From positions 310,001 to 374,000 of the forward strand of contig NZ_SMGO01000003.1 in NCBI RefSeq assembly GCF_004339765.1: a stretch of DNA of 64,000 nt. The letters are read 5' to 3'. The notes beneath the pieces were generated by a model. That model was not told where the DNA came from, made no database searches, and was given only the letters and a program-made list of their open reading frames with translations. This stretch comes from Albibacterium bauzanense (GTDB lineage Bacteria; Bacteroidota; Bacteroidia; Sphingobacteriales; Sphingobacteriaceae). This document shows, in pieces, positions 8,365 to 58,324 of the stretch. Each line of letters starts with the position of its first letter. The stretch's first letter is position 1. Position numbers and translations under genes: made by a program.

Positions 8365-11300
8365 ATGCTTAATAAAATTATTGCTTTTAGTATAAAGAAT
8401 AAATTAGTTGTTGGCTTTTTTACTCTTTTATTGATAGTTTGGGGCTCATGGAGCGCAACCAAACTGCCAATCGACGCACTGCCTGACATTACCAATAATC
8501 AGGTACAGATCATTACAATTACTCCAACATTAGCCGCTCAAGAGGTAGAACAGTTTATCACCTACCCCATCGAAAAAAGTGTAGCAAACCTTCCCGATCT
8601 GGTTGAAATGCGTTCAATCTCAAGATTCGGACTTTCTTTAATTACAGTTGTATTCGATGAAAAGGTAGACATCTATTTCGCCAGACAATTAATCAATGAA
8701 AAATTAAAAGAAGCCGAAAATGAGCTACCAGAAGGTGTTGGCCGGCCAGAACTCGGTCCGGTTAGTACCGGATTAGGAGAAATCTATCAATATGTTCTTC
8801 ATCCGGAAAAAGGCTCTGAAGATAAATATACTGCCATGGAGCTGCGCACCATGCAAGACTGGATCGTTGCTCGTCAACTCTACGGAACTCCCGGAGTAGC
8901 CGAAGTAAATAGCTTCGGGGGCTATTTAAAACAATATGAGGTTGCCGTTGATCCTGACCGTCTATTAGCTATGGGAATCAATATACAGGACATCTTCAAT
9001 GCCTTAAAAAGCAACAATGAAAACACCGGTGGAGCCTATATTGAAAAAGCTCAAAGCTCTTATTTCATTCGGGGCATTGGTCTCATAACCTCTTTAGAAG
9101 ATATCAAAGCCATCCCGATAAGTACCGAAAACGACACACCCCTTTTTATCGGAGACGTTGCTACTGTCGATTTTGGTCATGCCACGCGCTATGGAGCATT
9201 TACCTATAACGGCGAAAAAGAGGCAGTAGGCGGAATGGTGATGATGCTAAAAGACGAAAACACATCTGAAGTTGTAAAACAAGTAAAGGAGAGGATGGAA
9301 ACTATCAAAAAATCTCTCCCGGATGATATTGTCATTGAAGCTTTTCTTGATCGGTCTGAACTGATCGACAGAGCAATCAAAACCGTAGAAACAAATTTAA
9401 TTGAAGGTGCCTTAATCGTCATTTTTGTCCTGGTAGTATTTCTGGGCAATATGCGGGCCGGTCTTATCGTAGCTTCAGCCATTCCTCTTTCTCTATTATT
9501 TGCATTAGGAATGATGCGTGTATTTGGAGTAAGCGCCAACCTGATGAGCCTTGGGGCGATAGATTTCGGACTAATCGTAGATGGTGCAGTCATAATCGTT
9601 GAAGCAATTATGCATCATCTCGGATTACGTAAAAACCGCAATCCGCTCACTCAACATGAAATGAATCAGGAGGTGTATTTATCCGCATCAAAAATACGCA
9701 ACAGCGCTGCTTTCGGTGAAATAATCATCCTGATCGTTTATATACCCATCCTAACTTTAGTAGGCACAGAAGGAAAAATGTTTAAGCCAATGGCTCAAAC
9801 CGTAAGCTTTGCAATTTTAGGTGCACTCATTCTTTCTATGACCTACATTCCTATGATGAGTGCCTTATTTCTCTCCAAAAAAGTATCAGATAAGAAAACC
9901 TTCGCCGACAAAATGATGGAGAGCTTACAAAGGCTTTACTCACCTCTTTTAAAGAAAATGATACGATTAAGGTATTGGGTTGTAAGCATCGCAGCAGCAA
10001 TATTCTTTTTCAGTATTCTTATATTCTCACGTATGGGAGGAGAATTTCTCCCTCAATTACAGGAAGGAGATTATGCTCTTCATTGCATACTTCCGCAAGG
10101 AAGTTCATTAACTCAAAGCATCGAAACATCGATGCAGGCTCAACGGATCTTACGCTCTTTTCCAGAAGTAGAATCAGTAGTTGGCAAAACGGGAAGTGCG
10201 GAGATTCCTACAGATCCTATGCCTCCGGAAACCACAGACTTGATCGTAAAACTCAAACCCAAAAGTGAATGGACTACCACGCAAGATTATAATGAATTAG
10301 CTGCTATGATGCTTGAGAAGCTGGAAGTAATTCCAGGAGTTTTCTTCGAAGCCTCTCAACCCATCCAAATGAGATTCAATGAATTAATGACAGGTGTCAG
10401 ACAAGATGTAGCTGTTAAAATTTTCGGAGAAAACATGGATACCTTAGCAGTACTTGCTCCAAAAGTTGCCAAGGTTATTCAATCGGTTGCCGGTGTAGCC
10501 GATCCTAGTATTGAAAGAGTAACCGGACTTCCTCAAATTACCATCGAATATGATAGAGACCGGATGGCCAACTATAAATTAACCATTGAGGAAGTCAATC
10601 GAACAGTTAAAACTGCCTTTGCCGGTGAGAAAGCAGGTTCGGTTTTCGAAAATGAACGAAAATTCGATTTAATAGTACGTTTAGACACCAATCATCGGGG
10701 TTCTATTGAAGATGTTAAAAATCTTCTAATTGCTACTCCTAAAGGCAACCAAATTCCCATATCTCAAATAGCTGCCGTTTCCTTTAAAGAAGGACCGGCC
10801 CAAATCAGCAGAGAAGATGGAAAACGGCGCATCGTTGTAGGATTCAATATCCAAGACCGTGATGTTGAAAGTGTAGTAGAAGAAATACAGCAAAAATTAG
10901 AAGAAAGCGATATACTCCCTCAGGGATATTACTATACTTATGGAGGTACTTTCGAGAGTCTAAAAGAAGCATCAGCACAATTAATGATTGCTGTACCCCT
11001 GGCCTTATTATTGATTTTTGCTTTATTATATTTTACATTTCATTCAGCAAAGCAAGCACTCTTAATCTTTACAGCCATCCCTCTCAGTGCAATAGGCGGC
11101 GTTTTTGCCCTAATAATACGTGGAATGCCCTTTAGTATATCTGCAGGTGTAGGTTTCATTGCCCTATTTGGAGTAGCAGTCCTCAATGGCATTGTATTAA
11201 TAGGAACTTTCAATCAATTAAAAAAAGAAGGTGTCAAAAACATATTTCAGCAGGTCTTGCTAGGTACACAAATAAGATTGCGGCCTGTTTTAATGACAGC

Positions 11301-12684
11301 ATCCGTTGCCTCACTAGGTTTTCTTCCAATGGCATTAAGCGGCGGTGCAGGTGCAGAAGTACAAAGACCACTAGCCACTGTTGTAATTGGCGGACTTATT
11401 ACTGCTACCCTCTTAACCCTCATCGTAATACCTTGTCTTTACATCATTTTTTCAAAAAGCAAAAAATTAAAAATGAATACCAAGCTATTAACTTGCTTAT
11501 TAGCTCTCACACTATTAAGTATCCAGCTGCCACTGAAAGCACAAAGCTCGACAGAGCGCATTAGTCTGCAAGCCGCAATCGATACAGCATTGGCTGCCAA
11601 TCTGCAATTCCAGATCAACAACGCTGAAACCGATAAAGCATCTTTTGATATTAAAGCCTCTTCTGAATTAGGAAAAACCGGCTTCTTTATCGATAACGAT
11701 GACATACGACCCAATGACAGAGGTGACTACAAAATCGGTGTATCTCAAGATTTTGAATGGCCAGGTTTATATGCAGCTCGGAAAAATTACTTCCAGGAAC
11801 AACTAAAATACGTACAGCTTAATCGGGAATTATTAAAAAACACCATCACAAGAGATGTCCGAAAGGTGTATTATGAACTTTGGTATTTACAGGAAAACGA
11901 GCAGCTGCTCAATCAGCTCGACAGCATTTATACGGAAGTTTTTCAGGCAGCCAAACTAAGATATGAAACCGGTGAAGTAGCTGCACTTGAGAAGATCGCT
12001 GCTGAGGTGAAGATGACAGAAATGAAAACTTTCATCAAACAAAACCAGCAAAGTATGTTCTCTCTTCAACAACAATTAATGGTTCTCCTAAACAAAGAGC
12101 AGCTTTATTTACCAATAGATGCACCCTTAGACAGAATGATGCCTAGAGCTGATACACTTCAAGCAAATCATCCATTAATCGTTTTACAGCAACAAAATAT
12201 CAAGATTGCGGAATCAAACACCAGTCTTCAAAAAAACGCAAATATGCCCGAGTTTTCTATTAGTGGCTTTTCTCAAAAGCTATATGGACTCAATAACCCT
12301 TTGTCGGGTTTTGCATTAACGGTTAGCGTTCCGCTGCTAAATAGCAAATCAGCAATCAATAAAGTAAGGGCAGCAGAAGCAGAAAGAACGATTGAAGAGC
12401 AAAAGCTTAATTCGCAGCTGCAAGAATTAAACTCGCAAAAGCTGCAAGCATTAGCGGCTGTTGATAAGCAATCTGAACTTGTTCAATTTTATGAAAACTC
12501 TGGTTTAAAGCAGGCCAATGAAATCATAAAAGCAGCGCAGCTGAGTTATCGCAGTGGGGAGATCGGCTTTACAGGTTTCAGTGAATTTCTCAGTCAGGCC
12601 GTAAATATCCGCGAGAACTATCTCTTGGCATTAAACGATTATAACCAGGCTCAAATAAACTATCTATACCTCATCAATCAATAA
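8365..12684 (+). CDS. CusA/CzcA heavy-metal RND pump fused to a TolC-like outer-membrane factor
   Basis: This is a 1439-residue fusion. Residues 1-1035 form a complete heavy-metal RND pump: N-terminal helix, two periplasmic porter regions and twelve membrane helices. The helix 4 motif DFGLIVDGAVIIVEA carries the Asp, Asp and Glu of the CzcA/CusA proton path. From Met1037 (ATG at 11473) a hydrophobic stretch ending LPLKAQS looks like a signal peptide, followed by about 400 residues of TolC-type coiled-coil hairpin and strands (RISLQAAIDTALAAN; repeated RYETGEVAALEKI and SYRSGEIGFTGF blocks). Such fusions are known in Bacteroidota. Together with the adaptor encoded 7 bp downstream it would export Cu/Ag, Zn or Co; the metal cannot be told from the sequence. 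Confidence 0.95.
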   Translation: MLNKIIAFSIKNKLVVGFFTLLLIVWGSWSATKLPIDALPDITNNQVQIITITPTLAAQEVEQFITYPIEKSVANLPDLVEMRSISRFGLSLITVVFDEKVDIYFARQLINEKLKEAENELPEGVGRPELGPVSTGLGEIYQYVLHPEKGSEDKYTAMELRTMQDWIVARQLYGTPGVAEVNSFGGYLKQYEVAVDPDRLLAMGINIQDIFNALKSNNENTGGAYIEKAQSSYFIRGIGLITSLEDIKAIPISTENDTPLFIGDVATVDFGHATRYGAFTYNGEKEAVGGMVMMLKDENTSEVVKQVKERMETIKKSLPDDIVIEAFLDRSELIDRAIKTVETNLIEGALIVIFVLVVFLGNMRAGLIVASAIPLSLLFALGMMRVFGVSANLMSLGAIDFGLIVDGAVIIVEAIMHHLGLRKNRNPLTQHEMNQEVYLSASKIRNSAAFGEIIILIVYIPILTLVGTEGKMFKPMAQTVSFAILGALILSMTYIPMMSALFLSKKVSDKKTFADKMMESLQRLYSPLLKKMIRLRYWVVSIAAAIFFFSILIFSRMGGEFLPQLQEGDYALHCILPQGSSLTQSIETSMQAQRILRSFPEVESVVGKTGSAEIPTDPMPPETTDLIVKLKPKSEWTTTQDYNELAAMMLEKLEVIPGVFFEASQPIQMRFNELMTGVRQDVAVKIFGENMDTLAVLAPKVAKVIQSVAGVADPSIERVTGLPQITIEYDRDRMANYKLTIEEVNRTVKTAFAGEKAGSVFENERKFDLIVRLDTNHRGSIEDVKNLLIATPKGNQIPISQIAAVSFKEGPAQISREDGKRRIVVGFNIQDRDVESVVEEIQQKLEESDILPQGYYYTYGGTFESLKEASAQLMIAVPLALLLIFALLYFTFHSAKQALLIFTAIPLSAIGGVFALIIRGMPFSISAGVGFIALFGVAVLNGIVLIGTFNQLKKEGVKNIFQQVLLGTQIRLRPVLMTASVASLGFLPMALSGGAGAEVQRPLATVVIGGLITATLLTLIVIPCLYIIFSKSKKLKMNTKLLTCLLALTLLSIQLPLKAQSSTERISLQAAIDTALAANLQFQINNAETDKASFDIKASSELGKTGFFIDNDDIRPNDRGDYKIGVSQDFEWPGLYAARKNYFQEQLKYVQLNRELLKNTITRDVRKVYYELWYLQENEQLLNQLDSIYTEVFQAAKLRYETGEVAALEKIAAEVKMTEMKTFIKQNQQSMFSLQQQLMVLLNKEQLYLPIDAPLDRMMPRADTLQANHPLIVLQQQNIKIAESNTSLQKNANMPEFSISGFSQKLYGLNNPLSGFALTVSVPLLNSKSAINKVRAAEAERTIEEQKLNSQLQELNSQKLQALAAVDKQSELVQFYENSGLKQANEIIKAAQLSYRSGEIGFTGFSEFLSQAVNIRENYLLALNDYNQAQINYLYLINQ

Positions 12685-14090: not shown

Positions 14091-16016
14091 CTATTCTTTA
14101 GATTTGATGGCAGATAGGTCTTGCTTTGGACGATCGGCATAGATCCACAAAACAATCGTTAATAGAATAGTTACTATTTGTGCCGCTAAAGATTGAACGG
14201 TCGGGTAGATTCCTAATGGTTCAAAACGAAGCCAATCGCTTACCAGGCTCATCTCGATGACCCCGGCTTCCTGCAAAGCAGAGAAACCTTTTCCTACTAA
14301 TACAACGGCAAGGATTGCCATCGTGAGGGCTGAGATCTTAAAGATCTGTTTAATGGGCAGACGTTTTGAGTAGTACATCATCAATATAGTGAAAACTATT
14401 ATAATAGCAGTCGAGGTGAGTAAAGCCCAGCCTATCGGTGAGCCGCTGCCTTCCGGAATATCCAATTTAAGTGCTGTTAAGAAAAGGATGACTTCGAAGG
14501 CTTCGCGAAACACAACAATGAACGAGAAGAGCATTAATCCCCACCAATTACCTGACTTTGATATTTTATTGATCTTAACTTCAATAAATTCCTTCCACTT
14601 TTTGATTTCTGACTTGCTGTGGAGCCAGGTACCCATAAAGATCAGGACAAATACGGCAATCAAAGAGCCTACTCCTTCCATCATTTCACGGCTGCTACCA
14701 CTGATCTTTACAAGTTGATCTACAAAAAACCAACTTATTATCCCAATAACCAATGCTGCAATCCAACCCAGGTGAAGAAACTTAATAGCCTTCTTAATCT
14801 TCAAAGGACGAAGAATACTTAAGATAACGATGATAATTAACAGAGCTTCCAATGCTTCTCTAAGGAGAATAGATAAAGCTGCCCAGAAAGTAAATCCGAA
14901 AGAATAAGAGTTATTATCCAGAGTTCCCTGAGCTTGTATAATCAGCTCATTAACATCGCTGTATGTTGAACGAACCAACGCTTCATCGTCACCTTTTAAA
15001 GCATTGCGATAAGCTAACATTGCCTTTTCAATGGTAATAACAATATTTTTATCTACAGCTTTTAAAGTATTCTCTACAATTTCAACACCTTCAAGATAAG
15101 AACTTAAAGCCAATTGCTGCGCTTGCCTTTTATCCTTATTTAGATAGGCCTGCAAAGAGGCATCTAAGTTATTAGAAGCGATATCAAGTGGTAAAACGCG
15201 CTCTGGTTCATAATGGCGAATTTGATTAAGCGTGACCTGTTGATCGGCTTTCGCTAAACTGGTTTCCAATTGCTGATCAGTCCATTTACTAACGCTATCC
15301 AGGTTAATTCCAGCAGGTAAACTTGCTAATTTATTGTCTGCTTCCGGATGGCTAAGCGACATGATGTAAAAAGAAACATCCCATAGCTCAGCTTCAGAAA
15401 GCTCAGCAAAAGAACGCATTGCGGTACCTTCCAATCCTAACTTTGCAACATTATAAGCTTGTACAGCTGTAAGGTTTTTCAGCGTACCGGGCTCTTGAAA
15501 ATTAGTTGGTGCCGGATCTAGACTTCCTGCAAGAATACCATCTCCTTTTCCTTGCGAACCATGACAGGACTGACATTTATCGTTATAAATCATCATTCCC
15601 GACTTTAAGCTAGGCCATTGATCAGGAGTTATTTTTATAAGACCCAGATCCAAGATCTTTTCTTTTATATCTCTCGCTTGTGTTTCTATTGACTCTTGAT
15701 CTGCTTTTGTTTGAATCAACTTCTTCAAATTCTCCAGCTCTCCTCTTAAATCTACAAAAACCTGGCTATTAACCTGCGGAACAAGATTTTCATGATAAGT
15801 AATGCAAGTTTGTGTAAACTCTGCAATCTCCTCAAATTCTGCTTCGTTAATAATTTTGCCATCCGCCACTGCACCTTCGTAATCTTTTGCAATATAATCT
15901 AACAAAGTCACCAGGGTTCTAGCTTCCTTTTCATTAACATCGGTTTGAGCCGAAGTAATAAAAGGGTTCACTAGAAAAAGAATGAAAAACAAAAGTGTAA
16001 TTTTCGAGAAGTTCAT
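14091..16016 (-). CDS. cytochrome c-FTR1 iron permease fusion
   Basis: The ATG at 16016 opens a clean signal peptide (MNFSKITLLFFILFLVNPFITSAQ); the longer form would start with TTG at 16031. About 640 residues: an N-terminal helical periplasmic region, a c-type cytochrome domain with CQSCH (148-152) and a probable axial Met near 200 in GTAMRSF, another helical periplasmic segment, and from about 375 an FTR1-type permease of about seven helices. The permease has both REXXE iron-binding motifs, REALE (386) and REAFE (504). In yeast and EfeUOB systems FTR1 needs iron oxidation; here a haem domain on the same chain could provide electron transfer, which is inference. A Fur-like box lies 107 bp upstream. 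Confidence 0.92.
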   Translation of the reverse strand: MNFSKITLLFFILFLVNPFITSAQTDVNEKEARTLVTLLDYIAKDYEGAVADGKIINEAEFEEIAEFTQTCITYHENLVPQVNSQVFVDLRGELENLKKLIQTKADQESIETQARDIKEKILDLGLIKITPDQWPSLKSGMMIYNDKCQSCHGSQGKGDGILAGSLDPAPTNFQEPGTLKNLTAVQAYNVAKLGLEGTAMRSFAELSEAELWDVSFYIMSLSHPEADNKLASLPAGINLDSVSKWTDQQLETSLAKADQQVTLNQIRHYEPERVLPLDIASNNLDASLQAYLNKDKRQAQQLALSSYLEGVEIVENTLKAVDKNIVITIEKAMLAYRNALKGDDEALVRSTYSDVNELIIQAQGTLDNNSYSFGFTFWAALSILLREALEALLIIIVILSILRPLKIKKAIKFLHLGWIAALVIGIISWFFVDQLVKISGSSREMMEGVGSLIAVFVLIFMGTWLHSKSEIKKWKEFIEVKINKISKSGNWWGLMLFSFIVVFREAFEVILFLTALKLDIPEGSGSPIGWALLTSTAIIIVFTILMMYYSKRLPIKQIFKISALTMAILAVVLVGKGFSALQEAGVIEMSLVSDWLRFEPLGIYPTVQSLAAQIVTILLTIVLWIYADRPKQDLSAIKSKE

Positions 16017-16122
16017 TTTAAAAAGAATCAATCAATTATTCGACGAATTGCTATCTGGCTTTCTTGTGTTCGCTGAAAGACTTAAGAGGATAGTAAAGAA
16101 ATACAGACAAAGATATAACTAT

Positions 16123-18700: not shown

Positions 18701-19609
18701 TTAAAAATACAGCTGAATTCCGCCAAGGAAACCAATGTTTACTGCATTCATTTCTCCATCTTTTAAACTATCTTTCCAGATATCGTTCTTGATCATATCT
18801 ATTCCTTCTGGAGTATTTGTAAAGATATGGCTAACTGCCGGACCACCATATATTTCGATATTCTTAGAAATTTTATAAGCTGGTATCAAGCGGATTGTCC
18901 CTTTTGAATACATACCTTTTTTAAAGTCGATTAGTGCTGTGTTTGCAGCTTCTACATTTAAACTAAATTGGTTTTTAGTTAACAAATGTGCCCCAAAGCC
19001 GGCTTCGAGAGCATATCGTTGTTTGTCATTCTGAATATTAAAACCCAGACCAACAATACCATACATGATTCTTCCACCCGAACGAAAAGAAGCTAATATG
19101 GTTTGATCATCATCAACACTAATACCGACGGCCTTGGTACCATCTGCAATCAAATTGACGATCCCGATTGGGTAATCACTACTATCAGCGATATTCATAA
19201 AACCTGCGAACTGCACCCCATGAACTTTACTTGCTTTATTAATAAAACCGGCAAGCTGCACTCCATGCACATCTCCACGTGCTATATTTGCAAAACCTGC
19301 CAATTGAAATCCTTTACCATTTTCATAGCTGTTCAGAAATCCAGCTAGTTGGACTCCCTTAGCTTCTTCCCGGATAATATTTGCGAGTCCTGCTAAGCTA
19401 ACTGCTTGTTCATTTTTTGATACTCCGGCAATGGCATGTAATGAAAGGATATTTGAATACTCTTTTGCATGAGTCCAATGATTGCTCAAGGGGTAAATTA
19501 ATCCTACATGTACAGACCTTTCTTTAGAAGATTGTGCAATAGCAGAGAAGGAAAATTGTGATAATAGTAGAATTGCAATAATAGCAATACGAATAGATTT
19601 GATTTTCAT
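18701..19609 (-). CDS. secreted surface-repeat protein (LA_2272-type VQLAG repeats)
   Basis: A 302-residue protein with a signal peptide (1-25, ending AIAQ) and five repeats of about 16 residues built on (K/H)GVQLAGFxN between residues 66 and 145, followed by a beta-strand-rich region related to the C-terminal part of the neighbouring STN protein (both contain a GPA block near the end). Repeats of this kind are annotated in databases as LA_2272-family surface repeats; function unknown. It has its own copy of the ATAGGGGT-N13-GTTGTC motif 20 bases before the ATG, so it should be a direct target of the sigma factor encoded at 22316-22888. Confidence 0.82.
   Translation of the reverse strand: MKIKSIRIAIIAILLLSQFSFSAIAQSSKERSVHVGLIYPLSNHWTHAKEYSNILSLHAIAGVSKNEQAVSLAGLANIIREEAKGVQLAGFLNSYENGKGFQLAGFANIARGDVHGVQLAGFINKASKVHGVQFAGFMNIADSSDYPIGIVNLIADGTKAVGISVDDDQTILASFRSGGRIMYGIVGLGFNIQNDKQRYALEAGFGAHLLTKNQFSLNVEAANTALIDFKKGMYSKGTIRLIPAYKISKNIEIYGGPAVSHIFTNTPEGIDMIKNDIWKDSLKDGEMNAVNIGFLGGIQLYF
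19160..19414 (-). repeat. five VQLAG-type protein repeats
   Basis: DNA coding for residues 66-150 of the smaller repeat protein: units of about 16 codons (VSLAGLAN, VQLAGFLN, FQLAGFAN, VQLAGFIN, VQFAGFMN cores). Confidence 0.8.
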
Positions 19610-19629
19610 TTTTGTCTCGTTTTAATTGA

Positions 19630-19656
19630 GACAACCTGAAAGGAGAACACCCCTAT
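19630..19656 (-). promoter_or_regulatory. candidate ECF-sigma promoter, copy 3
   Basis: On the minus strand ATAGGGGT (19656-19649), 13 bases, GTTGTC (19635-19630). It is identical in both blocks and spacing to the two copies at 22932-23008 and points at the second repeat-protein gene, whose ATG is 20 bases downstream. It lies just after the stop of the STN gene, in the 53-bp intergenic gap. Confidence 0.7.
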
Positions 19657-19662
19657 AAAGAA

Positions 19663-21399
19663 TTAAAATAAAGTGATACCAAACTCCCAGCCTATCCAGC
19701 CATTGCTAGCTGAACTGAATTGCTTGCCTTGATAGCTGGTAAAGGGAAAGTCTTCTTTATAACCTTTAACTGCTGCTGTCCGGTCATCTACAAACAGGTT
19801 AAAAGCAGGACCGGCAAATACTCCAAAACGTTTTGAAATATTCAGATTTAAAAGTGTTTTTGCGCGATATAGATTACTGAGCTCTTTCCATTTTCCGAGG
19901 TAGACATTTTGAGTAGATAACTCTGTGGAAAGGAATAACCGATCATTAAAAATGAAATCATGTCCGAATCCTATTCCAAAGGTAAAAGCTTTCTGATTCT
20001 GAATAAAATTTCCTCCTCCTAATAAGACTGTATAAAATGCTGCATTACCCGTCTTAAATCCAACATTAATAGTATTAAACTCTGTATTTGATAAAATTAG
20101 ATTCTTATATCCGTCCTTAATAAAATTAAAGGCCCCAATGCTTACCCCGGAAGAAGTATCGGCAACATTAATAAAACCGATTTGAAGGCCTTTTAAATTT
20201 CTTGAATAATTAAATAAACCAGCTAATTGAACACCATTTGTTTTTGCAAGACTCACATTTGCAAATCCAGCCATTTGAAGTCCTTGGATTTCTTTTTTTG
20301 CAATATTAATACCTCCGGTCATTTGGACGCCATGAACACTTCCTTGTACTTTATTGTATATTCCGGCCATTTGAACGCCGTTAACACTATCAAGCACCGA
20401 ATTATTAGCACCAGCTAATTGAACTCCATTAACACTCCCTCCTACCAAATTGAATATTCCAGCGGCTTGTAAGAAATTGACATTTCTTTTATTGATGTTA
20501 AACCCACCTCCAAGTTCTACTCCGTTAACTCCTGAAGTATAACCTCCCAATACATTTATTGAAAATTTATTTATTACTTGTCCGCTTAAAGAACCATGCG
20601 TACTCAATCCCGGAGTTATGGAAGTCTGGAAAGGCGTATACGCAAAAAAACTTCCTAAGTTTAAACTTTGAAGTTTCTGTTTGGAAGAAACAAAGAACCT
20701 GCCCATTGCGGTCCTTTCAACCTTAAGTAAATCATCTCCAGGCTGATATCCATACCTTTCATTTTTACTACCTCCTGGTTTTATCAATACAGGAGCCAAC
20801 AAAACAATCGTAGTGTCGCGATAGTATTCTTTACTGATGGTCAATGACAGGCTATTTACCGGATTCTTTACTTTGAGCTTGAAATAGCCTTTTTCATCTG
20901 TAAGCGTTGAAAGCAGAAGGCTTTTTTCATACACACTGGCATTAGCTAATTTAGCACCAGTCAGATCATCTACAACATACCCTGTAATGGTATGAATCTG
21001 ATCGTATTCCAGGTTATCTTCAGAAACCAACTGTAAACGATTAGGGGCTAAACGAAGAATAACGTAATTAGGAGCCTCTTTATATTCATAATCTCCTTTC
21101 AAAAGTTTATTGAGAACCTCTTCTATACTTACTCCTTTAACGGAAATGCTAACTAAACTATCTTTGGGAATAACACTGCTGCTATAAGAAAAGTAAAAAT
21201 TACCAGACCTGCTTATTCTATCCAATACATCACTCAATTTCTCATCTTTAACATCTATCGATATCAGCTGAGTCAGGTAATTTTGAGCAATAGCATTATT
21301 TGTAAATAAAAAGCAGATGAAGATTAAAAGATAAAATCTTAACGATGCAGAATAATTTGCTCGCCACTTTTGTCTGCTTTTATGTTCAATGTTTGGCAT
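19663..21399 (-). CDS. STN-carboxypeptidase-like protein with nine VQLAG surface repeats
   Basis: A 578-residue protein with four parts: signal peptide (about 20-39, ending AIAQ); STN (secretin/TonB short N-terminal) domain at about 45-118; carboxypeptidase-regulatory-like beta-sandwich at about 137-205 (ITGYVVDDLTGAKLANASV); and a C-terminal region with nine repeats of about 16-19 residues on a GVQLAGxxN core (291-430), then strand-rich sequence. STN domains normally sit on TonB-dependent transducers and signal to FecR; here there is no TonB barrel on the chain. The gene overlaps the end of FecR by 61 bp, so it is in the sigma-FecR operon. I infer that it acts as the outer-membrane or surface sensor for FecR. 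Confidence 0.85.
   Translation of the reverse strand: MPNIEHKSRQKWRANYSASLRFYLLIFICFLFTNNAIAQNYLTQLISIDVKDEKLSDVLDRISRSGNFYFSYSSSVIPKDSLVSISVKGVSIEEVLNKLLKGDYEYKEAPNYVILRLAPNRLQLVSEDNLEYDQIHTITGYVVDDLTGAKLANASVYEKSLLLSTLTDEKGYFKLKVKNPVNSLSLTISKEYYRDTTIVLLAPVLIKPGGSKNERYGYQPGDDLLKVERTAMGRFFVSSKQKLQSLNLGSFFAYTPFQTSITPGLSTHGSLSGQVINKFSINVLGGYTSGVNGVELGGGFNINKRNVNFLQAAGIFNLVGGSVNGVQLAGANNSVLDSVNGVQMAGIYNKVQGSVHGVQMTGGINIAKKEIQGLQMAGFANVSLAKTNGVQLAGLFNYSRNLKGLQIGFINVADTSSGVSIGAFNFIKDGYKNLILSNTEFNTINVGFKTGNAAFYTVLLGGGNFIQNQKAFTFGIGFGHDFIFNDRLFLSTELSTQNVYLGKWKELSNLYRAKTLLNLNISKRFGVFAGPAFNLFVDDRTAAVKGYKEDFPFTSYQGKQFSSASNGWIGWEFGITLF
20110..20529 (-). repeat. nine VQLAG-type protein repeats
   Basis: DNA coding for residues 291-430 of the STN protein; cores include VELGGGFN, VQLAGANN, VQMAGIYN, VQMTGGIN, LQMAGFAN and VQLAGLFN. 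The units are diverged at the DNA level, so they look ancient, not recently expanded. Confidence 0.8.
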
Positions 21400-22319
21400 A
21401 TTATATCTAATATCGCATCAAGCGACTTGTCTTTAAAAGTAGTATTCAAAAGTATATTTTTCAACCCATTTCCTTCAATAATAATTTGAGCATCGTAAGC
21501 CTCGTTCAAAACTTCAACCAATCTCCAGAGGGGTGTATCGTCTGCAATAAACTCTTTATTTCTATAATATTTATACAATTGATCTGTATTTATTTTTTTC
21601 TCGAAACTATTATCTGATTTATTGATATCAACCATTTCATTACGTTTTAAGCGAATAATGATATCTTTTTTACTGACCTCCACTATACCTGTTTCTACGA
21701 TCAACTCTGTATGATCGTTTCCTGTTCTAATGTTAAAAGAAGTTCCGACAACCTTAACTTGTACATCATTAATGTTTACAATAAAAGGTTTAGATGGGTT
21801 GGGAGTGATATTAAAAAAGGCTTCTCCACCATCAAGGCTGATTGTTCTATTATTTCCAGAAAACCGTTTAGGATAGCTTAACTGACTATTCTTATTTAAT
21901 GTAACTATGGAACCATCTGGCAAGGTATCTATTCTAATTTCGTTGAATGTTTGAACAATAATAGTAGAATTTAGTCCTTTTGGATTTATAATAGTAATAT
22001 AAGAAAGCCATAAACCAACACTGACCAATACAAGAATTGCAGCTACTTTCAACCATTGAAATCCATCTGGTTTTCGACTGGAATTACTAATTTCTCCAGA
22101 TTGAACTCTTTTCTGAAATCTGGCCCAGGCTTCATCTTCATTGACTTCATTCTTAAGGGCGAAAGCTTCGCTCGATTCCAATATTAATTTAAAATCAGCA
22201 TATTTCTTTTCATTCTCAGCACTGTCCGCGATCCACTTTTCTACCAGCTCTTTTTCATCCGAACTAGTTTCGTTCACCAGATACTTAATTAATAACTCTT
22301 CATTCACCTTCTGTTTCAT
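21339..22319 (-). CDS. FecR-family anti-sigma/sigma regulator
   Basis: A 326-residue protein with the usual layout: cytoplasmic N-terminal anti-sigma region (1-85), one membrane helix (about 88-110, WLKVAAILVLVSVGLWLSYI), the periplasmic FecR domain (DGSIVTLNKNSQLSYPKRF, GEAFFNITPNPSKPFIV, VVGTSFNIR), and a C-terminal DUF4974-like segment resembling STN (TFKDKSLDAILDIICQTLNI). Its ATG overlaps the sigma gene stop (ATGA), and its end overlaps the STN gene by 61 bp. It should hold the sigma factor until signalled from the periplasm. Confidence 0.93.
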   Translation of the reverse strand: MKQKVNEELLIKYLVNETSSDEKELVEKWIADSAENEKKYADFKLILESSEAFALKNEVNEDEAWARFQKRVQSGEISNSSRKPDGFQWLKVAAILVLVSVGLWLSYITIINPKGLNSTIIVQTFNEIRIDTLPDGSIVTLNKNSQLSYPKRFSGNNRTISLDGGEAFFNITPNPSKPFIVNINDVQVKVVGTSFNIRTGNDHTELIVETGIVEVSKKDIIIRLKRNEMVDINKSDNSFEKKINTDQLYKYYRNKEFIADDTPLWRLVEVLNEAYDAQIIIEGNGLKNILLNTTFKDKSLDAILDIICQTLNIKADKSGEQIILHR

Positions 22320-22888
22320 AGCTTATAAAGATTTAGTAATAGAAAAAGAAGAGGTAAAAAGTCGATGAGTTCAAGCCTTAGAAGCTTTAAAGCTTTACCC
22401 ATCTGATTTTCTACAGTTTTAATGGATATATTTAATCTATCTGCAATCTCACGGTATTTTAATTCCTCAAAGCGACTCATCTGAAATACAGTTCTACAAC
22501 CTTCAGGTAAACGACTCAAGGCTTCATGCAGACGCTCTTCGAGTTCTTTTAATTGTACCCGACTGCTTGAAGCTTCGCTGCTTTCATCTTTCATGACGTA
22601 TACCTGATGTTGTTGATATTTTAGTTTCACTTTCTGATGCTTTAAATAATTCAGACTGTCATTATATACACTACGATATAGGAAAGCTTTGATTGAAGTA
22701 TGAACCATCAGGTCTTCCTTCTTTTCCCAAAGCCTCATAAATAAATTTTGCACGATTTCTTCTGCAGCCAGTTCATCCTTAAGAAAAGTATATGCATAGG
22801 CATATAATGCTTTAAAATGAGCTTTAAACAGCTCTTCAAAGTCTAGATCTGCCTTCAAAGGATTAAGTTCTGCCGATAACTTTATCAA
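22316..22888 (-). CDS. ECF RNA polymerase sigma factor, TTG start
   Basis: A 190-residue sigma-70 of the ECF class: region 2 (LFKAHFKALYAYAYTFLKDELAAEE, then VQNLFMRLWE) and region 4 (LPEGCRTVFQMSRFEELKYREI followed by the helix-turn-helix LNISIKTVENQMGKALKLLR). The C-terminus has a short hydrophobic tail (FLPLLFLLLNLYKL). The only start that keeps region 2 complete is TTG at 22888, with AAGGGA 3 bases upstream; an in-frame stop lies 15 bases further up, so no ATG is available. It carries a copy of the regulon motif upstream and is likely autoregulated. Confidence 0.92.
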   Translation of the reverse strand: MIKLSAELNPLKADLDFEELFKAHFKALYAYAYTFLKDELAAEEIVQNLFMRLWEKKEDLMVHTSIKAFLYRSVYNDSLNYLKHQKVKLKYQQHQVYVMKDESSEASSSRVQLKELEERLHEALSRLPEGCRTVFQMSRFEELKYREIADRLNISIKTVENQMGKALKLLRLELIDFLPLLFLLLNLYKL

Positions 22889-22931
22889 AATTCCCTTATG
22901 ATATCAATGTGTTTTATTAATTCAAATATAT

Positions 22932-22958
22932 GACAACATACCTTGGGTTTACCCCTAT
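22932..22958 (-). promoter_or_regulatory. candidate ECF-sigma promoter, copy 1 (autoregulation)
   Basis: On the minus strand ATAGGGGT (22958-22951), 13 bases, GTTGTC (22937-22932), ending 43 bases before the TTG of the sigma gene. The GTC in the downstream block is common in ECF -10 elements. Confidence 0.7.
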
Positions 22959-22981
22959 GCAAAATCAAAATAAATAATTAC

Positions 22982-23008
22982 ATAGGGGTAAAATGAATAT
23001 TGGTTGTC
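22982..23008 (+). promoter_or_regulatory. candidate ECF-sigma promoter, copy 2 (TonB receptor)
   Basis: ATAGGGGT (22982-22989), 13 bases, GTTGTC (23003-23008), ending 31 bases before the ATG at 23040. It is a mirror image of copy 1: TGACAAC and TTTACCCCTATG on one side match CATAGGGGTAAA and GTTGTCA on the other with equal 10-base gaps, around a 21-base centre. Confidence 0.72.
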
Positions 23009-23039
23009 ATAATACCAAATATTCATTTTAACATCTAAT

Positions 23040-25370
23040 ATGAACAAGTTTATTTCAACTTTAGCACTTATTGTCTTTATTAACCTTTCTGGTTTAGCAC
23101 AAGAACCGACACAACGTATACGAGGTATTGTTATTGATGAGGCATCTAATCAACCCTTACCTTTTGTAAGCATCGTTATTTTAAATAGCCAGCATGGTAC
23201 AACCACTGATAGTTTAGGGAACTTTATACTAAACGATATCGTTGTAGGCAGGTATACAATTCTGGCTTCAAGAGTTGGTTATGAATCTTATTCGGCAAAA
23301 GAAGTACAAGTAACTTCTGGTAAAGAAGTGTTTTTGAATATCTCTCTCAAAGAGAATATAAACACGCTTAGTGAAGTTATTATTAAGCCTACAATAAATA
23401 AAGGGCAAGCGTTAAATAATACGGCAACTGTAAGTGCCAGGATGTTAAGTGTAGAAGAAGCTAGCCGATATGCAGGTGGATTTGACGATCCGGCCAGATT
23501 GGTTTCTGCCTTTGCTGGTGTTTCCAGCAATACAAATAATAACTCGATCGTAGTTAGAGGTAATAGTCCACAGGCTTTACAATGGAAAATGGAAGGTATT
23601 GAAATTCCCAATCCTAATCATTTTGCAGATTTAGATGCTTTCGGTGGTGGCGGATTAACTGCATTAAGCAGTCAGCTTTTAGCCAACTCCGACTTCTACA
23701 CCGGTGCCATGCCAGCAGAATATAATAATGCCTTATCAGGGGTATTTGATATTTTTATGCGCAATGGTAACAATCAAAACCATGAACACACTTTTCAATT
23801 GGGTTTACTAGGAATTGATGCAGCTTCAGAAGGTCCTTTTAAGAAAGGAAAGCGTTCTTCCTATTTATTTAATTATCGATACTCAACCTTAGCTTTATTA
23901 GAGCCACTTTTACCAGAAAATTCAGGAGGTACAAGCTATCAGGATCTTTCTTTTAAACTTAACTTTCCGACAAAAAAAGCTGGTACCTTTTCAATATGGG
24001 GAATCGGGTTAATCGACGATTCAGGCGCAGAAGCAAAAAAGGATATGAGCGAATGGGAATATGATAGTGATATAGAAAATCAAGATGTAAAGCAATATAT
24101 GGGTGCATCTGGAATGAGCCATAAGTTGTTCTTAAACAACAACCAGTATATTAAAACAACCTTAGCTGCAACAACAACCGTTCTTGACATGGTTACTGAC
24201 AGATTAGATGATGACCTCTCTGTTTTTCCAAAAAACAGAATAAATAATAAAAACTATACCTTGACATTAAACTCATTCATCAACACAAAATTTAATGCAA
24301 AACATACCAATAAGACAGGACTTACAGCCACAGAAATGCTATATGATATTTCATTGAATAATGCCCTACCAATTGGAACACCCTTAGAGAACCTTGTTTC
24401 GGAAAACGGGCATAGTATGCTTCTTTCTGCTTATAGTAATTCGACTTTAAATTTATCTGAAAGATTTACAATGAACCTGGGAGTAAACGGGCAATTATTC
24501 ACATTAAATAAGAATTATACCATTGAACCTCGTGTGGGAGTTAAATATCAATATTCGCCAACACAGGCATTGAGTTTTGCGTACGGTTTACACAGTCGTT
24601 TAGAGCGGTTAAACTATTATTTTGTAAAGGGGAATGTAGGTGAAGATCTTAATAAGGATTTGGACTTTACTAAATCACATCATTTAGTATTGGGGTATGA
24701 TTTAAATCTATCAGAATATACTCACTTTAAAATTGAAGCCTATTACCAACATTTGTTTGATGTTCCAGTAATTCAAGACAGTTCCTTCTCATTAATAAAC
24801 CAACAGAATGATTGGTTTTTCAATGCACCTTTAAAGAATGAAGGAATGGGAAAAAATTATGGAGTAGATATTACTTTGGAGAAGTACCTGTCTCAAGGCT
24901 ATTATTATATGTTTACAGCCTCCATCTTTAATTCACAATATAAAGGCGGAGACGGAATATGGCGCGATACCCGGTATAATAGAAATTATGCATTCAATTT
25001 CTTAATCGGTAAAGAATGGCGGGTAGGTAGAAATAAACAAAATGTATTGGGGTTGAACGCACGATTGAGCTATCAAGGAGGTGAACGCTATTCTCCAATA
25101 AACACACAAGCCTCTCAACTATCTGAAGATGCCATTTTTGATGAAACTAACGCTTTCTCAAAACAGCTCTCTCCGGCTTTTACCAGTCACTTTACTGCAA
25201 GTTATAAAATGAATAAGGCAAAGTCAACGCATGAAATTGCATTTAAAATTTTAAATGCAACCATGCATCAAGAATTCTTAGGATTTCAATACAACTACCA
25301 AACTCAAGCAGTGGATGAATTTAGAGAAGCTCTTTTTGTTCCTAATTTAAGTTATAAAATTGAGTTCTGA
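23040..25370 (+). CDS. TonB-dependent receptor, carboxypeptidase-regulatory-like N-terminus
   Basis: A 776-residue outer-membrane receptor with a signal peptide (1-20), a carboxypeptidase-regulatory-like domain (about 26-110, IRGIVIDEASNQPLPFVSIV), a plug-like region (RLVSAFAGVSSNTNNNSIVVRG, then MEGIEIPNPNHF) and a beta-barrel ending in an aromatic residue (LSYKIEF). It has no STN domain of its own. It is divergent from the sigma-FecR-STN operon and shares the mirrored regulon promoter with it. The ligand is unknown; the plug has the form found in STN-less receptors of Bacteroidota. Confidence 0.92.
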   Translation: MNKFISTLALIVFINLSGLAQEPTQRIRGIVIDEASNQPLPFVSIVILNSQHGTTTDSLGNFILNDIVVGRYTILASRVGYESYSAKEVQVTSGKEVFLNISLKENINTLSEVIIKPTINKGQALNNTATVSARMLSVEEASRYAGGFDDPARLVSAFAGVSSNTNNNSIVVRGNSPQALQWKMEGIEIPNPNHFADLDAFGGGGLTALSSQLLANSDFYTGAMPAEYNNALSGVFDIFMRNGNNQNHEHTFQLGLLGIDAASEGPFKKGKRSSYLFNYRYSTLALLEPLLPENSGGTSYQDLSFKLNFPTKKAGTFSIWGIGLIDDSGAEAKKDMSEWEYDSDIENQDVKQYMGASGMSHKLFLNNNQYIKTTLAATTTVLDMVTDRLDDDLSVFPKNRINNKNYTLTLNSFINTKFNAKHTNKTGLTATEMLYDISLNNALPIGTPLENLVSENGHSMLLSAYSNSTLNLSERFTMNLGVNGQLFTLNKNYTIEPRVGVKYQYSPTQALSFAYGLHSRLERLNYYFVKGNVGEDLNKDLDFTKSHHLVLGYDLNLSEYTHFKIEAYYQHLFDVPVIQDSSFSLINQQNDWFFNAPLKNEGMGKNYGVDITLEKYLSQGYYYMFTASIFNSQYKGGDGIWRDTRYNRNYAFNFLIGKEWRVGRNKQNVLGLNARLSYQGGERYSPINTQASQLSEDAIFDETNAFSKQLSPAFTSHFTASYKMNKAKSTHEIAFKILNATMHQEFLGFQYNYQTQAVDEFREALFVPNLSYKIEF

Positions 25371-51855: not shown

Positions 51856-53667
51856 TTATTTATATCTAGGGTTTTCTACTAAATTAGGGTTATTTGCAGT
51901 ACGCGCAAGAGTGATAGGAAGATAATAATGCTGACTTTCAAATATTGGTGGCTTTACTGCCCCATCAACGTTCAACCTTTTCTCCACTAAAAACTCACGA
52001 CTCGTATAATCCAATATGTAGCGTATCCCGCTTTGGTTTCTTGATAAATAATCCTCAGCAATTCTCCAGCGTCTTAAATCCCAATAACGATGACCTTCAA
52101 AAGCTAATTCCACACGTCTTTCATTGCGAACCTGTTCAATATTCAATGAGGTTAACTCTTTAATTCCAGCTCTTCTACGTACCTGATTTAATGCGTCCAA
52201 TGCTCCTCCTTCATTTCCTAAGGCATATGCTGCTTCGGCATGATTAAGCAAAATTTCGGCATACCGAAAAACAATGAAATCTTGTGTGGATCCAAAAATA
52301 CCAGCAGTAGAACTATTTCCATTATCCTTCTTCTCATCTAAATACTTAAGTACGCCAAAGCCAGTTTGCGTTACCTTTTGATCACCATTTGCAAGCACTC
52401 CATTATAGGACCCAGTTGTAAGTATTGTTCCATCCTCTTTCCTAACACCATTATAGAACTCTAAATTGCGACCTTGCCATTTAGTATCCTGTGTGTAAAC
52501 GGTTGCTAAAAAACGTGGGTCTTTTCCTGCCCATAACTCATCGATCGTAATCAATTTCCCTTTTAAACTTTCAAAGTCTAAAGTACCAGGTCTTCCATCA
52601 ATATATTCAAAGGCTTCAGCAAATTCCAGATAGGGCGCATCATGAATACCATTAGCCCAACCATTTGGGAAAGGGCACTGAAAATAATCATAAGACCAAC
52701 CTGCACCACTATAATCTTTATCACTACCGTCATGTTGAATAGCAAATATTATTTCAGAATTTCTCTTCGTCAAGAAAAGCTCCCTGAAATTTGCTGTCTT
52801 ATCCGGATTTTGATCATAAAGCTGAAATCTGTTATCACCAATAATTTGAGAAGATGCTTTCATGGATTCTTGATAATATCTATTCGCCTGACTCCTTTCT
52901 ATCCCAACAACTCCACCAAGCTCTACCGTACCATATTCTGCAATACTACCTGCATAAAGCGCTGCTCTGGAAATCAATGCCAAGGCTGCATAGCGTGATG
53001 GACGTCCCCAATTACTATCATCTATTTGGGAAAGGTCATTAAGTATTTCTTTTGCCTCTGAGATCACAAAATCATAGACTTCCTGTTCGGTGTTTCGTTT
53101 TGGATATAACTCTTCCTCTGGATCTGTACTTTGCTGAACTTTGGTTATCAATGGTACACCGCCATATCGCTTGACCATATAAAAATAATTAAAAGCTCTT
53201 AGAAATCTAGCTTCTGCTATTTTTTCTTTTTTAAACGTTTCACTTACTGTTGAAGATGGAAGATTTTCTATGATTTCATTCAAGGTGCGGATCACCTTAT
53301 AGGGTCTTTCCCAATATTCTAGCAGCCCCCCGTTAATTTTAAGCCCATTGACTTTATATTGATAAGCATTTCCTGAAAAATTAGAAGTGGACTTTGATTC
53401 ATCACTCACATTATTGACGTAAAAAATCGAGAAAAAGGGTTTACTTGAGTTCGCAACATCATCTGCTTCATTGTTCAATACTGTTGTATTGAGATATGCA
53501 CCTGTTAAATACGAGTCTACAAGTTTTTCATCATTCCATACAATAGTTTCTGGAATCACATCTAATGGTTCTTTATCCAATACATTACATGTTGAAAAAA
53601 TCAACATAAAGCTTGCAAGCATCCACCATCTAAAATATTTTGACTTATATGATAATTGAGTTTTCAT
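51856..53667 (-). CDS. SusD/RagB-family nutrient-binding lipoprotein
   Basis: A 603-residue surface lipoprotein with a lipobox (FSTC near 27) and the SusD features: DVIPETIVWNDEKLVDSYLTGAYLN near the N-terminus, AEARFLRAFNYFYMVKRYGGVPLI and the C-terminal LNHAEAAYALGNEGGALDALNQVRRRAGI and ELAFEGHRYWDLRRWRIA blocks. It caps the SusC barrel and binds ligand. The ligand is not deducible. It is encoded 50 bp after SusC. Confidence 0.96.
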   Translation of the reverse strand: MKTQLSYKSKYFRWWMLASFMLIFSTCNVLDKEPLDVIPETIVWNDEKLVDSYLTGAYLNTTVLNNEADDVANSSKPFFSIFYVNNVSDESKSTSNFSGNAYQYKVNGLKINGGLLEYWERPYKVIRTLNEIIENLPSSTVSETFKKEKIAEARFLRAFNYFYMVKRYGGVPLITKVQQSTDPEEELYPKRNTEQEVYDFVISEAKEILNDLSQIDDSNWGRPSRYAALALISRAALYAGSIAEYGTVELGGVVGIERSQANRYYQESMKASSQIIGDNRFQLYDQNPDKTANFRELFLTKRNSEIIFAIQHDGSDKDYSGAGWSYDYFQCPFPNGWANGIHDAPYLEFAEAFEYIDGRPGTLDFESLKGKLITIDELWAGKDPRFLATVYTQDTKWQGRNLEFYNGVRKEDGTILTTGSYNGVLANGDQKVTQTGFGVLKYLDEKKDNGNSSTAGIFGSTQDFIVFRYAEILLNHAEAAYALGNEGGALDALNQVRRRAGIKELTSLNIEQVRNERRVELAFEGHRYWDLRRWRIAEDYLSRNQSGIRYILDYTSREFLVEKRLNVDGAVKPPIFESQHYYLPITLARTANNPNLVENPRYK

Positions 53668-53717
53668 CTATTTGTTTTTATTTACTTTTATTAATGATAT
53701 CGATTTCTTGCACTTCA

Positions 53718-57110: not shown

Positions 57111-57208
57111 ATTTTTGAATATTGTTAAATGGTATGATAATGCCAATTAATTATACAGCTATGCTAACAAACTTTCGACGGCAAGTTAGCTGCTGTCTTT
57201 TATTGTAG

Positions 57209-57234
57209 ATGGGAGTTGTTCGTTCAACTTCCAT
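57209..57234. terminator. hairpin between fecR and susC
   Basis: A 10-bp stem with one G-T pair (ATGGGAGTTG / CAACTTCCAT) and the loop TTCGTT, 25 bases after the FecR stop. The T-run is on the plus-strand side, so it may be a weak attenuator or RNA-stability element for the minus-strand transcript, not a strong terminator. Confidence 0.4.
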
Positions 57235-57258
57235 TTACTATTTTTTTCTGTTTATTTT

Positions 57259-58242: not shown

Positions 58243-58324
58243 TTATGCTCTTTGATTATATAACCGAACGGGATCAGGGTTTGTCCCAGAGCAAAACAAA
58301 ATTTAATATAAGTAGGATGTTTTA

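Follow-up and report, generated by a model that had tools for sequence, protein, structure and literature searches.

The window analysed here is a stretch of 64,000 nucleotides of Albibacterium bauzanense (contig NZ_SMGO01000003.1, positions 310,001 to 374,000). According to its list of open reading frames, the genes for a sigma factor, a FecR protein, a 578-aa protein and a 302-aa protein together span 18701-22888, and the gene of a TonB-dependent receptor lies divergently beside them (Table 1). The sigma factor scores 173.6 bits with TIGR02985 against a cut-off of 126.4 (NCBIfam). The FecR protein carries the FecR (PF04773, 6e-18) and FecR_C (PF16344, 2e-11) domains of Pfam, and its residues 126-325 match the solved structures 4m0n and 4m0h (1e-25 for 4m0n). 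The first-pass annotation had described these reading frames, with the STN domain on a separate 578-aa protein encoded in the sigma-FecR operon, and both the reading frame list and Pfam agree with it. As it had also held, the divergent 776-aa receptor is devoid of STN in Pfam, which finds only CarbopepD_reg_2 (4e-19) and a weak Plug (0.04). The receptor alone has no match among PDB sequences, while its family profile matches them in the carboxypeptidase-like domain only. The 61-bp overlap reported between fecR and the 578-aa gene is real (21339-21399). The same 61 bp are seen in the nearest relative (L040); in other relatives the value ranges from -130 to +183 bp, so conservation does not extend to the overlap. 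Each of the genome's other six FecR genes is followed by an ordinary STN-TonB receptor.

Table 1. Features of the locus, with positions in the window
Feature	Position	Strand	Basis
ECF sigma factor, TIGR02985 type, 190 aa	22316..22888	-	TTG start; ORF, Pfam, NCBIfam
FecR anti-sigma factor with FecR_C (STN-like) C-terminal domain, 326 aa	21339..22319	-	ORF, Pfam
Transducer candidate, 578 aa: signal peptide, STN, carboxypeptidase-like domain, predicted beta-solenoid and 8-strand barrel	19663..21399	-	ORF, Pfam, model
STN domain, residues 43-118 of the 578-aa protein	21046..21273	-	Pfam, model
CarbopepD_reg_2 (SusC NTE-like), residues 119-204	20788..21045	-	Pfam 7e-8, structure and sequence matches
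Repeat region, residues 251-429, predicted beta-solenoid, 16-residue coils	20113..20649	-	model
Predicted 8-strand outer-membrane barrel, residues 430-578	19666..20112	-	model
Solenoid and 8-strand barrel protein (predicted) without STN, 302 aa	18701..19609	-	ORF, model
TonB-dependent receptor, 776 aa, CarbopepD_reg and plug, without STN	23040..25370	+	Pfam, profile search
Motif AGGGGT-N13-GTTGTC before sigma operon	22932..22956	-	genome search
Motif AGGGGT-N13-GTTGTC before TonB receptor gene	22984..23008	+	genome search
Motif AGGGGT-N13-GTTGTC before 302-aa gene	19630..19654	-	genome search

The 578-aa protein is the unusual member of this set. Its AlphaFold model (mean pLDDT 89.7) places in order an STN domain, a SusC-type carboxypeptidase-like domain, a beta-solenoid formed by the repeats and an eight-stranded OmpA/OprF-like barrel. 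The STN domain is found above the Pfam cut-off (PF07660, 5e-9), and the carboxypeptidase-like domain matches the SusC NTE (9hfj, 6e-9). The solenoid, with a pLDDT of mostly 92-98 from residue 281 onward, resembles tapirin (6n2c; Z 10.2, with an rmsd of 3.2 over 172 residues), and the barrel resembles OprF 4rlc (Z 13.9, rmsd 2.8 over 123) and the designed TMB 6x9z (Z 14.1, rmsd 1.9 over 111); a Foldseek search of the model against the PDB gave nothing below E 0.001. A TonB-type barrel in the C-terminal half, which had been named as the finding that would speak against the earlier reading, is not what the model gives, and neither plug nor TonB barrel was detected in this protein by Pfam. The barrel is also similar to the soluble designed barrel mFAP1 (Z 13.2) and to streptavidin (Z about 10), so its fold alone is no proof of membrane insertion. 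As indirect signs of outer-membrane insertion, most of its strands have one hydrophobic face and one polar or small face. A C-terminal Phe is present in 51/72 transducers and in 41/72 of the STN-less solenoid-barrel proteins (REP), and a crude pattern finds signal-peptide-like N-termini in 71/72 and 70/72, respectively. The model predicts an outer-membrane barrel.

The 302-aa protein, a REP, is modelled as a solenoid and barrel of the same type without STN (pLDDT 94.1, pTM 0.80). Its barrel matches OprF with Z 14.3 and rmsd 2.3 over 117, while Foldseek against viral models returned mostly generic barrels. The repeat counts given earlier were confirmed by eye: the 16-residue coils number nine in the 578-aa protein and five in the shorter one. 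Both barely reach the 25-bit cut-off of LA_2272_repeat (NF047436), at 25.3 and 25.0 bits, respectively.

A survey of STN-repeat genes beside FecR had been suggested, and it was found that the gene order is kept far beyond this strain, so that the second finding named as one that would speak against the earlier reading, an order confined to the strain, did not come up either. Loci were picked solely by similarity to the 578-aa protein; 8 of the 116 examined had no complete transducer, leaving 108. FecR lies directly 5' of the STN-solenoid-barrel gene in 102 of these, and at least one (L156) of the six transducers without an adjoining FecR is near a contig end. A REP gene is in the neighbourhood of 78 loci. 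In the Sphingobacteriaceae, the family of the window, the transducer is present in 47 of 121 sampled genomes, and the module, common there, is widespread in Bacteroidota. The system FecR proteins form a co-inherited clade. In a quick tree of 51 system FecR (out of 102) with the full set of 24 paralogs, two label changes separate them, against a mean of 20.6 for shuffled labels, and 50 of the 51 cluster together, the remaining one (L100) joining two paralogs. Alignments were made of the window's transducer with 81 of the 89 relatives of at most 690 aa, leaving out 13 longer ones (699-729 aa), and of the window's REP with 64 of 77 REP proteins.

The predicted regulon of the earlier annotation turned out to be real as a motif. 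AGGGGT-N13-GTTGTC has exactly three matches in the 3.08-Mb genome, all at this locus: one precedes the sigma operon, one the TonB receptor gene and one the 302-aa gene. The spacer is 13; AGGGGT and GTTGTC separated by 15-17 or 14-18 gave no match. The claim of a second secreted repeat protein in the shared regulon holds for the motif common to it; 'secreted' does not, since the model predicts an outer-membrane barrel. With up to two mismatches, the motif occurs at 89/97 related loci against 3/97 shuffled ones, and is missing from the other 8/97. Five loci taken as second copies (L109, L115, L155, L170 and L179, of L046, L044, L050, L048 and L045) were kept out of these counts and remain within the 108 loci and the 102 FecR. 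An exact site is present in 19/47 family genomes with the transducer versus 2/74 without it. The motif is promoter-like, a candidate for a sigma-dependent promoter common to the target genes. Over the 121 family genomes, a reversed control pattern gave 16 matches against 30 real sites, and two of the 11 sites away from the operon (L253, L254) lie more than 320 nt from any gene start; single distant sites can thus be chance. In two genomes, distant solenoid-barrel gene copies have the motif with one mismatch, 19-22 nt 5' of the start. It is absent from solenoid-barrel genes in genomes where no STN partner was seen (16 entries, 13 distinct; best 4-6 mismatches). Exact sites 19-39 nt before a start elsewhere belong to genes for an OMP_b-brl_2 barrel (L040), a DUF2807 protein (L248), a PepSY-like lipoprotein (L249) and a lipid A acyltransferase (L251). 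A lipid A acyltransferase gene is also seen 3' of the transducer in L047, and DUF2807 lies within five genes in 52/108 loci.

With a probability of about 0.72, we read the locus as a dedicated cell-surface signalling module whose transducer in the outer membrane is something other than a TonB-dependent transporter. The architecture, the conserved gene order, the co-inherited FecR clade and the conserved motif come directly from computation; the contact of STN with FecR, the protection of FecR at rest, its proteolysis and the release of sigma are inferred from the FecA/PupB/FoxA systems. The eight-strand barrel would anchor the 578-aa protein in the outer membrane, and the repeat solenoid would act as a stiff periplasmic stalk, carrying the carboxypeptidase-like and STN domains toward the inner membrane. 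There, STN would meet the anti-sigma factor at its FecR/FecR_C part in the periplasm. This contact would change upon an event at the outer membrane, and FecR would be processed. From AGGGGT-N13-GTTGTC, the freed ECF sigma would then transcribe its own operon, the TonB receptor gene and the gene of the solenoid-barrel protein without STN. In relatives, STN contacts the anti-sigma factor (PMC7186176, PMC11637429), and by analogy the STN of the 578-aa protein would engage FecR. A whole-protein covariation analysis of 77 transducer-FecR pairs did not single out STN: the top 50 include 4 STN-FecR_C pairs, 2.4-fold over expectation, but in the top 500 such pairs are only as frequent as expected (1.0-fold); solenoid-cap columns score above STN, perhaps from a clade split.

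It had been suggested that the repeat region lies at the cell surface, where it would bind a ligand or another cell and signal through FecR. NF047436 does carry the family name 'surface repeat', and the number of repeats differs among relatives. However, the repeats sit between STN and the first barrel strand. Both ends of an eight-strand barrel are on one side, and its N- and C-termini are expected to be periplasmic; here, they lie opposite the longest loop (538-564, conservation 0.29). Conservation along the protein is highest (0.685) in residues 251-337, at the N-terminal end of the solenoid region, which is unlike a variable surface binder. The repeats are placed in the periplasm because the solenoid precedes a barrel with periplasmic termini, and loop lengths and conservation agree. 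Surface-exposed repeats doing the sensing are thus decidedly improbable, and the model makes a stalk the more likely role. A better fit is sensing by the extracellular barrel loops or sensing of outer-membrane state. The latter differs from the main explanation only in the signal and is a possible, if tentative, reading. The barrel-stalk protein would report barrel assembly and outer-membrane distance; if it were missing or displaced, STN would no longer shield FecR, and sigma would turn on envelope genes, including a replacement barrel. The four envelope genes with exact sites elsewhere argue for it, as do the acyltransferase and DUF2807 genes near transducers; DUF2807 has been unified with the envelope-stress Toastrack domains in PMC11237479. 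Against it, several of these genes are single cases, and the motif is also found at TonB receptors with or without DUF4249 partners (the window, L244, L245 and L246), which looks like uptake. A test of a periplasmic ruler, by correlating REP and transducer lengths, gave no support (Spearman 0.13, p 0.27, 72 loci). A broader proposal, which we consider less likely than not, is that of a TonB-independent signalling class in several Bacteroidota families. Its barrel-anchored solenoid stalk would span part of the periplasm and present STN to FecR, thereby gauging the outer membrane's state (assembly of barrels or OM-IM spacing), the STN-less twin would be the main output and possibly a feedback partner, and the transducer would import no nutrient or ligand.

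The divergent TonB receptor might instead be the true sensor and the STN-barrel protein only a relay. The receptor has the motif, and its relatives occur at 18/108 loci; it is, however, missing from the neighbourhood in 90/108, a neighbourhood count in which distant copies were not sought in every genome, whereas REP and FecR are far more regular companions. This makes such a role unlikely. Another thought is that the 578-aa protein is a decayed TonB receptor that lost plug and barrel, since a SusC-type receptor in the same window (53718-57146) likewise starts with STN and then CarbopepD_reg_2. Its C-terminal half is, however, a well-predicted different fold that is conserved across families and has its own STN-less homologue. 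Decay is extremely improbable and is ruled out by the structure models.

The preferred module shares its main parts with FecI-FecR-FecA, PupI-PupR-PupB and FoxI-FoxR-FoxA, which also have an ECF sigma, a membrane anti-sigma (FecR with an STN-like C-terminal domain) and an STN on the outer-membrane partner. Unlike FecA, PupB and FoxA, the partner here has neither plug nor 22-strand barrel and presumably no transport function. The closest precedent is VreA-VreI-VreR (PUMA3) of Pseudomonas aeruginosa, with a non-TonB-dependent STN receptor beside a sigma and a FecR-like regulator. According to PMC2729926, VreA has no barrel, is mostly soluble and periplasmic with a TolA/TonB-like C-terminal domain, and vreA is not induced by its sigma; the C-terminal part of the protein here is a predicted solenoid and barrel, and the gene order differs. 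With the LA_2272 surface-repeat proteins, the GVQLAGxxN repeats are shared, at cut-off, while the STN fusion, the FecR linkage and the predicted periplasmic repeats are different.

The statement that no system of this make-up is described holds for the literature searched, with VreA as an earlier example of an STN receptor that has no TonB barrel. No description of the module was found by title and abstract, a scope that excludes preprints and most subscription papers, and LA_2272 appeared there in Leptospira papers only. The module is apparently undescribed so far. In the described systems, a single TonB-dependent protein both transports and signals, and the two functions are difficult to disentangle, as PMC9249621 states for FecA. 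Here, the barrel that bears the signalling front end is not that of a TonB transporter; the sensor is not the usual nutrient importer, and signalling may therefore be separated from transport. If STN-FecR signalling runs without TonB energy and plug, the route from an outer-membrane event to FecR becomes testable in a simpler protein, and in a module that is common in its family with a very specific predicted promoter. It also suggests a function for a repeat family named so far by sequence only.

SusC-type TonB receptors with STN in sigma/anti-sigma loci of Bacteroidota have, according to PMC7782687, the same front of STN and CarbopepD_reg_2 beside FecR and ECF sigma; here, the solenoid and eight-strand barrel replace the plug and TonB barrel, and there is no adjoining SusD. 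A classic SusC-type STN receptor locus is located at 51856-58948 of the window.

The 302-aa and 578-aa repeat proteins both lie in the region of an ECF sigma and FecR operon, and each barely reaches the cut-off of the LA_2272_repeat model. The first-pass annotation had placed the STN domain on the larger repeat protein (here called the transducer) and had left the divergent TonB receptor without one. Pfam agrees with this, as no STN match is found in the 776-aa receptor. The 61-bp overlap between fecR and the transducer gene is exact and, among the loci compared, common to the nearest relative only.

Features of the window and of related loci (L-numbers)
Sequence	Coordinates	Strand	Feature	Pfam or remark
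Window	8365-12684		1439-aa ORF	full RND pump (ACR_tran) and outer membrane efflux protein (OEP) in one frame
Window	14091-16031		fusion of an FTR1 iron permease with cytochrome c domains	2.7 kb from the 302-aa gene
Window	18701-19609	minus	302-aa repeat protein (REP)	
Window	19663-21399	minus	578-aa STN protein (transducer)	STN, CarbopepD_reg_2
Window	21339-22319	minus	FecR anti-sigma factor	FecR, FecR_C
Window	22316-22888	minus	ECF sigma factor	
Window	23040-25370	opposite to sigma operon	776-aa TonB receptor	CarbopepD_reg_2, weak plug
Window	51856-58948		classic sigma-FecR-STN SusC-SusD set	textbook example
L047	8619-9515		lipid A acyltransferase gene	immediately after the transducer gene
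L251	5224-6078		lipid A acyltransferase gene	motif 25 nt upstream
L252	3764-6099		gene of unknown product, then short-chain dehydrogenase and epimerase (both NAD-binding)	motif before the first gene

The AlphaFold model of the transducer, built on 82 sequences (mean pLDDT 89.7, pTM 0.64), was compared with PDB structures. Residues 119-204 match a beta-sandwich, which is the carboxypeptidase-like domain of Pfam, and residues 251-430 a beta-helix, that of tapirin (6n2c; Z 10.2, with an rmsd of 3.2 over 172 residues). In the model, the repeats keep a strict 16-residue period, each coil being made of a 7-residue and a 4-residue strand. The C-terminal residues 428-578 resemble 8-strand barrels, namely the designed transmembrane barrel 6x9z (Z 14.1), OprF (13.9), NspA (13.4) and OmpA (12.7). 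A model of the 302-aa protein built on 65 sequences (pLDDT 94.1, pTM 0.80) predicts the same solenoid and barrel without the STN domain. Soluble 8-strand barrels match this model too (mFAP1, Z 13.2; streptavidin, about 10); therefore, membrane insertion of the predicted barrels rests on indirect signs. These are a C-terminal phenylalanine (51/72 transducers, 41/72 REP proteins), signal-peptide-like N-termini (71/72 and 70/72) and, in family averages, one hydrophobic and one polar or small face in most of the strands.

An 8-strand barrel has both its ends on one side. In the predicted barrel, turns 2-3, 4-5 and 6-7 have 4 residues each, while the last loop (7-8) has 27; its conservation of 0.29 is among the lowest, the loop 465-469 scores 0.27, and the loops on this side are on average less conserved than the turns. 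Such short turns and long variable loops are the usual picture when both barrel ends are periplasmic. As the solenoid directly precedes strand 1, it would also be periplasmic, and its roughly eleven coils would make up a stalk beneath the barrel. The earlier proposal of a repeat-bearing surface sensor, read as exposed repeats that do the sensing, is not supported by the predicted topology. Conservation along the whole protein peaks in the first part of the solenoid region (residues 251-337), at 0.685 vs 0.55 for STN.

At E 1e-10, a relative of the transducer turned up in 23 of the 60 related genomes, in some cases through the STN part alone. At E 1e-25, 47 of the 121 family genomes have a match, and the STN part is covered by all of the best matches. 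A family profile matched 69 of 395 genomes of the phylum; in that search, long matches spanning STN and barrel fall within the same class, and repeat-only proteins occur in a family of another class. Pedobacter, Mucilaginibacter, Olivibacter, Dyadobacter, Chitinophaga, Niastella and Taibaiella are among the named relatives. A complete STN-solenoid-barrel gene is present in 108 of the 116 loci examined, and the counts on these 108 take in five duplicate genomes. Within five genes of it lie FecR (102), sigma (99), REP (78), DUF2807 (52) and a relative of the TonB receptor (18). The gene order is conserved well beyond the strain, with FecR directly upstream in 102/108 loci.

The FecR protein appears to have been inherited along with this arrangement. 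Six of the seven FecR genes in the genome are each followed by an STN-carrying TonB receptor; four of these receptors are open frames of 1106-1155 aa, one of which belongs to the classic set of the window (51856-58948), and two were seen in part, their STN and plug motifs being recognised by eye. The STN region of the receptor in the classic set also matches the FecR_C model, and this set is a good internal control. A quick tree was made with 51 FecR proteins of the system and 24 paralogs from six genomes; system and paralog labels require two changes on it (shuffled mean 20.6). Fifty of the 51 fall together, and one (L100) joins two paralogs. Thus, FecR belongs with its unusual partner.

A promoter-like motif, AGGGGT-N13-GTTGTC, marks the system as well. 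The 3.08-Mb genome has just three exact sites, one each upstream of the sigma operon, the TonB receptor and the 302-aa gene; a further site elsewhere carries one mismatch. In 1.56 Mb from 103 related loci, including the window, there are 68 exact sites, as against none of the reversed pattern; 59 of the 68 precede a system gene (REP 35, sigma 17, receptor 3, transducer 3, FecR 1) and 9 lie elsewhere. With up to two mismatches and a spacer of 12-14, a site occurs in 89/97 loci vs 3/97 after a crude two-letter shuffle. The motif typically precedes REP in the order REP-DUF2807-sigma-FecR-transducer, and sigma in other orders. REP genes far from the transducer have it in G007 and G028, with one mismatch and at 19 and 22 nt upstream of their starts. 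It is absent before repeat-only genes of genomes with no STN fusion seen (16 rows, of which 13 are distinct; 4-6 mismatches at best). Among the 121 family genomes, TAGGGGT-N13-GTTGTC occurs in 19/47 with a transducer vs 2/74 without (Fisher p 1e-7); the figures for its reversed control are 2/47 and 13/74.

The first-pass annotation knew of no such make-up, and no STN partner built as a solenoid plus 8-strand barrel, and having a promoter class, a FecR clade and an STN-less twin to itself, was found in the literature searched. A non-TonB STN partner as such has one precedent: VreA of Pseudomonas aeruginosa is an STN receptor without a barrel and is mainly periplasmic (PMC2729926). The solenoid and predicted barrel distinguish the transducer from VreA. 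The system is filed here as a novel variation on cell-surface signalling.

Most of the motif-bearing genes away from the operon encode outer-membrane or envelope proteins, and single cases may be due to chance. In four genomes, the motif precedes operons of a TonB receptor and DUF4249, the latter called by Pfam in L245 and L246 and by eye in L244 and L247 (motif distance 166 nt in L247). Single loci have it before a DUF2807 gene identified by BLAST (L248), a PepSY-like lipoprotein gene (L249), a hydrolase gene (L250) and an OMP_b-brl_2 barrel gene (L040), besides those tabulated. A dehydrogenase-epimerase pair like that of L252 also adjoins the system in three other genomes (L041, L043, L096).

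The STN-type domain of PupB binds and stabilises the two-part periplasmic region of PupR (PMC7186176), and the FoxA-FoxR contact is present without signal and guards the anti-sigma factor against proteolysis (PMC11637429). The window FecR has the same two periplasmic parts, and shielding of FecR by STN is therefore proposed. At rest, the stalk-borne STN would shield FecR; an outer-membrane event would alter this shielding, and the freed sigma factor would transcribe the motif-bearing genes. Covariation over 77 transducer-FecR pairs gave no clear signal for an STN-FecR contact. The event may be a ligand at the barrel loops, an attractive reading given the TonB receptors among the motif-bearing genes, or the assembly and position of the barrel itself, which the envelope-like targets make attractive.

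Several variants of the system were also seen. In three Dyadobacter loci (L140, L161, L163), the transducer gene lacks an adjoining FecR, and an exact motif of its own lies in the 150 nt before it. Thirteen transducers are 699-729 aa long (L100, L141, L146, L158, L162, L164, L169, L172, L173, L175, L178, L182, L183); by eye, the repeats are fewer in those of L141 and L158, and the C-terminus is longer by about 180 barrel-like residues. In 27 loci between L104 and L168, many from Pedobacter, a gene of roughly 500 aa, by eye a putative fatty acid hydroxylase, stands between DUF2807 and sigma. A typical Bacteroidota copy is present in a record titled Williamsia (Actinomycetota; L164), which is probably a mis-named bin.
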